Positions 55,901-58,900 of a stretch of DNA of 64,000 nt are shown here, piece after piece. The DNA lies in NCBI GenBank assembly GCA_029706075.1, contig JAINUG010000088.1:434001-498000 (forward strand). Direction: 5' to 3'. Positions within the stretch are counted from its first letter, which is position 1; the number at the start of each line of letters is the position of its first letter. This stretch comes from Aldrovandia affinis. Lineage: Eukaryota > Chordata > Actinopteri > Notacanthiformes > Halosauridae. Made by a program: the position numbers and the translations under genes. The notes beneath the pieces are model-generated. The model was not told where the DNA came from. It ran no database searches and saw only the letters and a program-made list of their open reading frames with translations.

Positions 55901-58900
55901 AACCCCTTCACAAACAGGGCACACACTGGACCCCCTCTAAGATGATCCATCGACTCGGAAAAGAGATCAACAACCCAGAGTCAGTGTACTACTGGGCCTA
56001 CAAGGTAAGATGCACCGACGCACACAGTGCACTGACTGACCCCTGCTCAGTGTACCTTTAGAGCTAGCATGGATTGTGTCTTTAATCGAAGGCTAACAAA
56101 AATTGTTAAAATTAATAATACATGTACTGCTAACAATATAATATATGTACACTATCGGTCAAAAGTTTTAGAACACCCCCATGGTACAAAGGTAAGTGGT
56201 AAACTGCCAGAGGTGGGGAAAAAAAATAGTTTAGGTTACCAAAAGCTGAAAAATAATGTAAATATTTTGGCAGTGAGTAGTTTCCTACACCATCAGAAGG
56301 CACTTGGAAACTGGAGCACTTGTCTCTGTTTCAGAATGACATCCCTGTGTTCAGCCCTGCCTTGACCGACAGTTCCCTTGGCGACATGATCTACTTCCAC
56401 TCCTACAAACTGGAGGAAACTGACAGGAAGAGGTCTGGCAGACCCAAAGCCACAACAAAATCAGAAGACAAGTTTCTGAGAGTCAACAGCTTGCGTGATA
56501 GGCGGCTCACAGGACAACAGCTTCAAGCACAGCTTTAAATCATGGAATCATTTTGTTTAACAAAATTTAAATCAAAATATCTATTTAGACTCATTAAAGT
56601 AGCCACCTTTTGCAGATATAACAGCCGAACACACTCTTTCATTCTTTCTAGGTCTTCTGACATAGCCTGGAGGTATGTTTTGGGTCATTATCTTGCTGTA
56701 GGATGAACCCCTGACCAACTAGGCATAGACCAGAGGGTATTGCATGGTGTTGCAAAATGCTGTGGTAGCCCTTTTGGTTCAGGGTGCCAGTCACTCTGCA
56801 TGTCGCAGACTCTGGATCCAGCAAAAGGCCCCAGACCATCACGCTTCCTCCTCCATGTTTGACAGTTGGTGTCACACACTGAGGAACCATCCTTTCACCT
56901 ACTCGACGGCCTACAAAAATCCTGTGTGCTGAACCGAAGATTTCAAATTTTGATTAATTGGTCCATAAGACCTTCTTCCAGTCTTCAGTAGTCCACTGGT
57001 GGTGCTTCATGGCCCAGGCAAGCCTCTTTTTCTTATTTTGCCATCTTAGCAATGGCTTTCTTACTGCCACTCGACCTGTCAAACCTGCAGCTCAAAGTCT
57101 TCTCTTCACAGGTGAAACTGAGACATCCTTATTTTGACCAGTGCTTGAAGCTGTTGTCCTGTGAGCCGCCTATCATGCAAGCTGTTGACTCTCAGAAACT
57201 TGTCTTCTGATTTTGTTGTGACTTTCCTCCAGTTTCCAAGTGCCTTTTGATGGTGTAGGAAACTGTACTCACTGACACTGACACTCACTCACTGTTCTTT
57301 GCAATTTCTCTAAAGAAAAGACCTACACTTTTAAGGGTTATAATGGTCTGTCTGTCTTCTTTTCTTAATTGCCTTTTTCTCACCATTATGATAGCAATGT
57401 GAAATATTACACTACTTCCGGCAGTGTAATATTGTCCAAATAATGCTTCAGAGGGTGTAGTAACACAGTCTGTTCCAACACTGCTTTTATACAGACAGAG
57501 GGTTTGTAAGTAATCAACAAAGGTTGGGACACCTGTAGGAATTGTTTGCATCAACTTTCAAGGCTTAGTTTACTTCCATTGCAGAACAGAACTTACAGAA
57601 CAGCTGTAAGTTGTTAAGTCATTACTTGTTCCCTGAAAAGGGCCTTTTTTTAATAACTCTGAAATTTAACCTCTGGCAGTTTACCGCTTACCTTTGTACC
57701 ATTTCAGGTTATTCACTGGACTTGCTTAAATTTCTGTAAAAACTGGAAAAATGGCGGTGTTCTAAAACTTTTGACCAGTAGTGTATATATATTATTTTGT
57801 TGTTTTTCTGGGCAGCCATTGAAAATGTACCTTTTTGGTATAATTGTATATTCCTGTAGTAGGCAATCAGAAGGTGCTTGTAATTATTCCTGGAGTTTCC
57901 AGGAACAGTTTAGTAAATATATGAAAATGAAACCCCTCTATGCAATTGACATTGTGCAAGTGTTTAGTTGGACATGCCAAGCATGCAGTTATATGGCATT
58001 CACAAGCCAATGTAGAGTAGGCTCCGTTTTTATTCACAACCTTGATAAAGATGAACAAAAGAGATTGTATAAAAAGTAATGAGGTATATTTTATTTTATT
58101 TTATGCAGAAAATTATATTCTTTAATAATAATGCACAATTGAATGGTTCACAAATTATCTTTTCCCCCCAGAAAAATCAAGAATCACAAATATTCACACC
58201 CCTGTTATCAGTACTTTGTGGTTTCTCCCTTTGCCATTATAACAGCAAGTAGTCACCTTCTGTAGTGTTGTACAAGGTTATGGAATTTTTGGGGGGAGAT
58301 CCTCAACCATTCCTCCATACAGAATTGTTCTAGTTCCTTCAGATTCTTGGGTTGACATTTGTGAACTGATTTTTTGAGTTCAAGCCACAAATGTTCAATT
58401 GGATTCAGGTCTGGAGACTGAGATGGCCATGTCAGGACATTGATCTTGTGCTTTGTCAACCATTTATTGGTTTCTTTGGACATATGTTTGGAATCATCTT
58501 GTTCTTTAGCCAAGGTGTAGCGTCCTGGCAGTGGGAACAAGGTTTTTTGACAAAATGTCTTAGTTCATGCTGGAGTTCATGGTTCCATCTATTTTATTTT
58601 AAATTTATTTCAGATTTTTTCCCGTTTTTCTCCCAATTTGGTTGCCAATTAAACCCTCTCTTTATTTCAATTCTCCACCCCCACGAGCCAATAGCCCGTC
58701 CTCCAGGAGCGAGACACACATTCCTGGCTGAGTGTTCCCGCCTCCTCCGAGACGGGAATTCTTCCACGGACGCCTTAACCTTCTCCTCGACGGACTCGTG
58801 CCGGCTCTCCCTCCCCCCTCCCCCGGAGGCGGACAGCCAAATGCCACCTCCGATCGGGCTGACGACCAGGGCCGGTCTGGTAGAGACGTGGGTTTCGATC

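Follow-up and report, generated by a model that had tools for sequence, protein, structure and literature searches.

A dhps exon 6 segment inside a composite Tc1-type element in intron 5 of the same gene

In intron 5 of the deoxyhypusine synthase gene (dhps) of Aldrovandia affinis, a composite and degenerate Tc1-like element carries within its left arm a 90-nt copy of the end of intron 5 and the beginning of exon 6. We regard it as probably a single-copy Tc1/mariner Pack-TIR, in which a break or a stall of DNA synthesis inside the element would have been patched in cis, with exon 6 of the same gene as the template.

Results

The captured segment and its source

A blastn comparison of the element with the window, i.e. 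the whole stretch of 64,000 nt that was analysed and that forms part of contig C2444 in an assembly of 1.22 Gb, aligned positions 56320-56409 with positions 61037-61126 over 90 nt, 87 of which are the same (96.7% identity, E 1.4e-37). The copy lies on the plus strand, in sense to dhps, and its source on the same strand is found 4717 nt away, in the downstream direction. It comprises 15 nt of intron 5, including the acceptor AG (TTGTCTCTGTTTCAG), followed by the first 25 codons of exon 6 (61052-61157, plus strand, boundaries set by eye), and it agrees with the 90-base copy of acceptor and codons, 97% identical, that was described in the initial annotation of this locus. The three mismatches fall at positions 56362, 56367 and 56371, and at one codon the copy specifies Ser instead of the Gly of exon 6 and of the two solved enzymes shown, a change to be expected in a derivative that is free of constraint. 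The identity of the host gene follows from a 149-residue peptide assembled from its exons, which matches Pfam PF01916 (E 3.1e-61), and from a 61-residue peptide of exons 5 and 6, which can be aligned over its full length with chains of deoxyhypusine synthase, e.g. 1dhs.

The genome search suggested in the initial annotation, for an exon fragment that had moved along with its carrier, was run with exon 6 and its flanks and matched two places in the assembly only, the exon itself and the copy in intron 5 (both of the two candidates scored), and the other copies of the element that were compared are free of the insert. The capture thus has not travelled, and a segment travelling with the element was rejected as an explanation. 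The captured segment has one clear parental copy to which it is at least 90% identical, as is required of single-copy Pack-TIRs, and its 15 intron bases set it apart from an intronless retrocopy; its 90 nt fall below the 100 bp applied in the survey of Pack-TIRs (PMC8277862), a value that is a screening cut-off and not a biological trait.

The nearest inverted-repeat arm seen near the parental copy ends at 60867. Intron 5 has a further pair of inverted repeats at 58026-60867, downstream of the captured segment and upstream of exon 6, which seems to belong to a different element of about 2.8 kb and includes other repeat-like sequence recognised by eye. On the other side, a tandem array of four 50-nt copies with 82% matches (61137-61334) begins in the 3′ end of exon 6 and its 5′ splice site (boundary by eye), so that copies of the donor site succeed one another in intron 6.

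Structure of the host element

The element occupies 1638 nt on the minus strand (56148-57785) and is bounded by TA at 56148-56149 and 57784-57785, as had been reported for this place in intron 5; its ends are inverted, and inverted ends flanked by TA are characteristic of Tc1/mariner elements. Comparison with its relatives revealed a composite, in which the left part (56148-56316 and 56407-56535) corresponds to the 5′ arm and the start of the transposase, in the direction opposite to the rest, and occupies the place of the element's 3′ end. Both outer ends are inverted 5′ ends of one Tc1 family, but their leaders differ, the left arm having a short leader as in copies of about 900 nt (L050, L052) and in the longer L031 and L033, and the right arm a long one. 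At present the left arm forms one half of a long inverted repeat. The exon segment does interrupt transposase sequence, as proposed earlier, but this sequence is the second, inverted 5′ arm and not the main body of the element.

The first part of that inverted arm, which includes the short leader (56148-56316, plus strand, delimited by alignments to other copies), is missing 55 nt near 56182, in the end region, when compared with L031; the same stretch is absent at the same place in L047, so the loss may be inherited or recurrent. Over 56183-56316 the closest match is L049 (126/134). The second part (56410-56535, plus strand, from copy comparison) holds the start of the transposase coding sequence, and its positions 56416-56535 equal those of L052 in 120 of 120 nt, a match that is not diagnostic and names no donor, because identity over 116-117 nt is also found in several other copies. 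According to the alignment, this arm meets the main body at 56535-56537, in the 3′ region of the latter, and the 3′ end proper has been lost. The main body itself (56537-57785, minus strand) has its 5′ end at 57785, is short of about 190 nt at 56650/56655, and bears in the right arm a 31-nt deletion (57224-57228, minus strand) at the position equivalent to the one where the exon was inserted in the left arm. No other copy among the best 40 of 737 candidates spans the composite junction, and the possibility that the composite is a mobile subfamily was rejected on this ground.

Edges of the insertion and insert-free copies

The edge repeat noted in the initial annotation is a 9-nt duplication, AAACTGGAG, present at 56308-56316 and at 56407-56415 (both on the plus strand, defined by the sequence, the arm ends and the alignments). 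Its left copy is followed by CAC (56317-56319, plus strand), three nucleotides that match neither the native element nor the exon source, while AAA of the right copy is shared with the end of the exon segment, resulting in a microhomology of 3 nt. Chance alone yields an overlap of at least 3 nt with a probability of 0.052 at a given edge and of 0.10 at one edge or the other; the edges are compatible with microhomology-guided joining, weakly and without proving it. A search for a template of the CAC filler gave no significant candidate, as the nearby GCACTTG, tried as a slipped template, is equalled by 0.123 of random fillers.

In six of eight aligned element copies the sequence runs uninterrupted through AAACTGGAG into GAAAC, and the other two have a small deletion there. 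A second alignment gave a similar picture, with six of nine other rows continuous across the insertion site; in the same nine rows L052 lacks 12 nt at the site, the right arm of the window element has its 31-nt deletion, and L048 is too diverged. Among 67 sequences spanning the site, the left arm of the window element is the only one with a long insertion at this point, and the exon insert was not found in any of the others; insertions of 5 nt or more in the other loci reach at most 22 nt, none of them at the exon site. Since the element is continuous on both sides, with nothing lost and 9 nt doubled, the exon segment was added to the element, and a scenario in which the exon copy resided in the intron before the arrival of the element was rejected, given that element sequence continues without loss on both sides.

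Deletions in other copies are found in the vicinity, with 12 of 29 distinct types starting within a 30-nt part of the 178 nt around the site (p 0.0016, for a region chosen post hoc), but the coverage peak was not significant (p 0.28). That the insertion site is a fragile site or a deletion hotspot is thus only suggested.

The element family in the genome

With the element as a query, 282 matches were obtained in the genome from the best 40 of 6083 candidates scored, and as repeat searches scored the best 40 candidates, such counts are lower bounds. In one of the copies, L030, an open frame that starts at the first ATG encodes 347 residues, with Pfam domains of the Tc1 type above cut-off (HTH_Tnp_Tc3_2, DDE_3 and HTH_38, among others), and no Pfam domain was found in two short pieces of the transposase of the window element. 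The L030 protein aligns with the Sleeping Beauty transposase (5cr4, E 9.8e-53) and has 4 residues more in the aligned stretch. Between the second D and the E, which we take to be the catalytic residues, it has 38 residues, and the DD38E spacing is thus read from L030. Such a spacing characterises the group known as Intruder or DD38E (PMC7731502). From the L030 spacing and the transposase domains, the family is classified as a DD38E-type Tc1 family.

Private stretches of at least 35 nt were detected in three rows, namely the window element, L049 and L069. This test covered the 40 of 67 rows (37 distinct places) in which both ends were present, with 27 rows left out for want of one recognised end, and it is blind to inserts common to two fetched loci. 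The private insertions of L049 and L069 proved to be nested high-copy repeats, and no other gene-derived insert was seen among the 40 rows (37 places) with both ends.

Elements with two inverted 5′ ends are recurrent in the family and not rare, being present in at least 9 of 19 loci (L047, L052, L057-L061, L064 and L065) and also in L067, L068 and L070. All of these elements are short and devoid of a 3′ end, measuring 862-912 nt in the eight with both ends recognised; the longer copies of the family reach about 1.6 kb. In L031 (C1812:3392800-3396300) a part of the transposase region is repeated four times in tandem with a spacing of 553-568 nt. Within the window, positions 27442-27733 hold a fragment that belongs to this Tc1 family, at 89% identity, and what appears by eye to be the start of a further Tc1-type element lies downstream of dhps at about 63170-64000, where it is cut by the end of the window.

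Discussion

In regard to the mechanism leading to such a structure, the best reading is the patching of the element from the neighbouring exon, and it is supported by the identity of the copy, its sense orientation, the edges, the insert-free copies, the presence of exon 6 in two places and a composite junction that is shared with no other copy examined. According to this model, a break or a stall of synthesis would have occurred inside the element arm, and the repair strand would have switched to exon 6 as a nearby template and returned to the element 9 nt short of the point of departure. Alternatively, the 9-nt duplication could result from staggered ends that were filled in and then joined to the patch. 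The host might already have been a composite, its 3′ end replaced by the inverted 5′ arm, or might have become one in the same episode, and the finished composite need not have transposed. The short distance, the overlap at one edge, the single copy and the internal position match what is published on single-copy animal Pack-TIRs (PMC8277862), and the 3-nt overlap is weak support when taken by itself.

A related mechanism, to which we give a clearly smaller though appreciable chance, couples the repair to excision, so that the gap left by the departing element would be refilled from other copies, with switches to an inverted 5′ arm and to exon 6. Templated filler after an excision was also the explanation offered in the initial annotation, of which the filler from the neighbouring exon is retained and the excision as the starting event is not favoured, as the insert is internal, removes nothing and has 9 nt doubled at its edges. 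The left arm is itself rearranged, so that excision-coupled repair deserves some credit: it is a 5′ arm in inverted orientation, its leader is short whereas that of the right arm is long, and little or no homology is seen where it meets the main body; the recurrence of two inverted 5′ ends in at least nine of the 19 loci, plus three more, is likewise what repair from the wrong end would give. However, a head-to-head second insertion followed by one deletion yields the same arm equally well, and the exon segment, the addition of which deleted nothing, lies away from the junction of arm and main body. Published breakpoint statistics also favour internal breaks: breakpoints of Pack-TIRs are close together and skewed inward, from which the authors of the survey infer breaks inside the element rather than excision. 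From excision-coupled repair they had expected more extensive deletions and breakpoints close to the ends of the element, and they found the opposite (PMC8277862).

The template could also have been RNA, if a piece of dhps pre-mRNA had served in break repair as a class 2 templated sequence insertion. The segment is in sense and comes from a transcribed exon, and for class 2 insertions in human cells an origin from RNA-derived patches is proposed (PMC5110952). We nevertheless find this quite improbable, because the captured segment has intron bases, which exclude spliced mRNA as the template, and has no poly(A), because a 9-nt duplication is not a feature of class 2, and because a nearby DNA template accounts equally well for the short distance. 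An artefact of assembly is harder still to believe, given the three differences from exon 6, the edge bases of the copy's own and its position inside a 3.8-Mb contig. Least credible of all is a capture at another locus, by a mobile element that would afterwards have returned to dhps. The inverted repeats with TA at the outer ends speak for it, but exon 6 matches no third place in the assembly, the composite junction did not recur among the best 40 of 737 candidates, and a chance landing less than 5 kb from the source would be very unlikely in a 1.22-Gb genome.

Patching from exon 6 requires no function of the captured segment, and the copied acceptor could be at most a weak cryptic splice site. 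The copy contains the acceptor AG and 15 nt of the tract, without the TTGAT just upstream of the source, which presumably could hold a branch point. Read in frame, exon 6 codons are followed by transposase codons and then by a stop, the peptide ending in QLQAQL. There is a very slight chance that the duplicated acceptor is used and that exon 5 would be joined to the captured exon head in an alternative dhps transcript, in frame up to the stop, which would imply a truncated or decay-prone dhps product and a new regulatory exon from a Tc1 capture. In general, a splice acceptor copied into an intron of its own gene is a simple route to a cryptic exon.

Comparison with known systems

Among the Tc1 elements, those of the Intruder (DD38E) group resemble the present family in the 38-residue spacing and the 347-residue frame of L030 and in longer copies of about 1.6 kb; the window copy differs in being broken, and the likeness is one of spacing and length (PMC7731502). 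In regard to captured gene pieces, Turmoil-1 of C. elegans, with its pieces of rsp-2 and cpg-3, similarly holds gene fragments within the inverted ends of an animal transposon, but these are described as placed in the terminal repeats of a multi-copy element, whereas the dhps capture exists in one copy (PMC2572040). Human class 2 templated sequence insertions likewise consist of a short piece copied from another place, the edges of which show microhomology and extra bases, and the dhps case differs from them in its flanking duplication and in a source 4.7 kb away in the same gene (PMC5110952).

The closest counterparts are animal Pack-TIRs. The survey lists 370 of them, 115 being TcMariner, so the statement in the initial annotation that few clear Tc1/mariner cases are known is outdated (PMC8277862). 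There, most single-copy Pack-TIRs are read as transposition-independent gap filling, the source is no more than 15 kb away in 56.9% of 281 unique cases, and no more than 5 kb in the majority of that group, microhomology accompanies at least one edge in 67.6%, and exonic sequence was captured in 13.4% of the published cases (PMC8277862). As in single-copy TcMariner Pack-TIRs, an element with terminal inverted repeats carries in dhps an internal stretch copied from nearby, in one copy and with microhomology at one edge; unlike the Pack-TIRs of the survey, its insert of 90 nt is under the 100-nt floor and is flanked by a 9-nt duplication, and it resides in a composite that includes a 5′ arm in inverted orientation (PMC8277862). 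Finding a capture just under the size floor of one large animal survey suggests that short captures are under-counted. The location in an intron of its own gene, the size below the published floor, the insert-free copies and the composite host are the special points of this case. The dhps capture clearly exemplifies a type of event for which animal cases have been published, and it illustrates at the level of single bases the local copying of an exon into a Tc1-type element, where the copies without the insert establish both the direction and the edges of the insertion.
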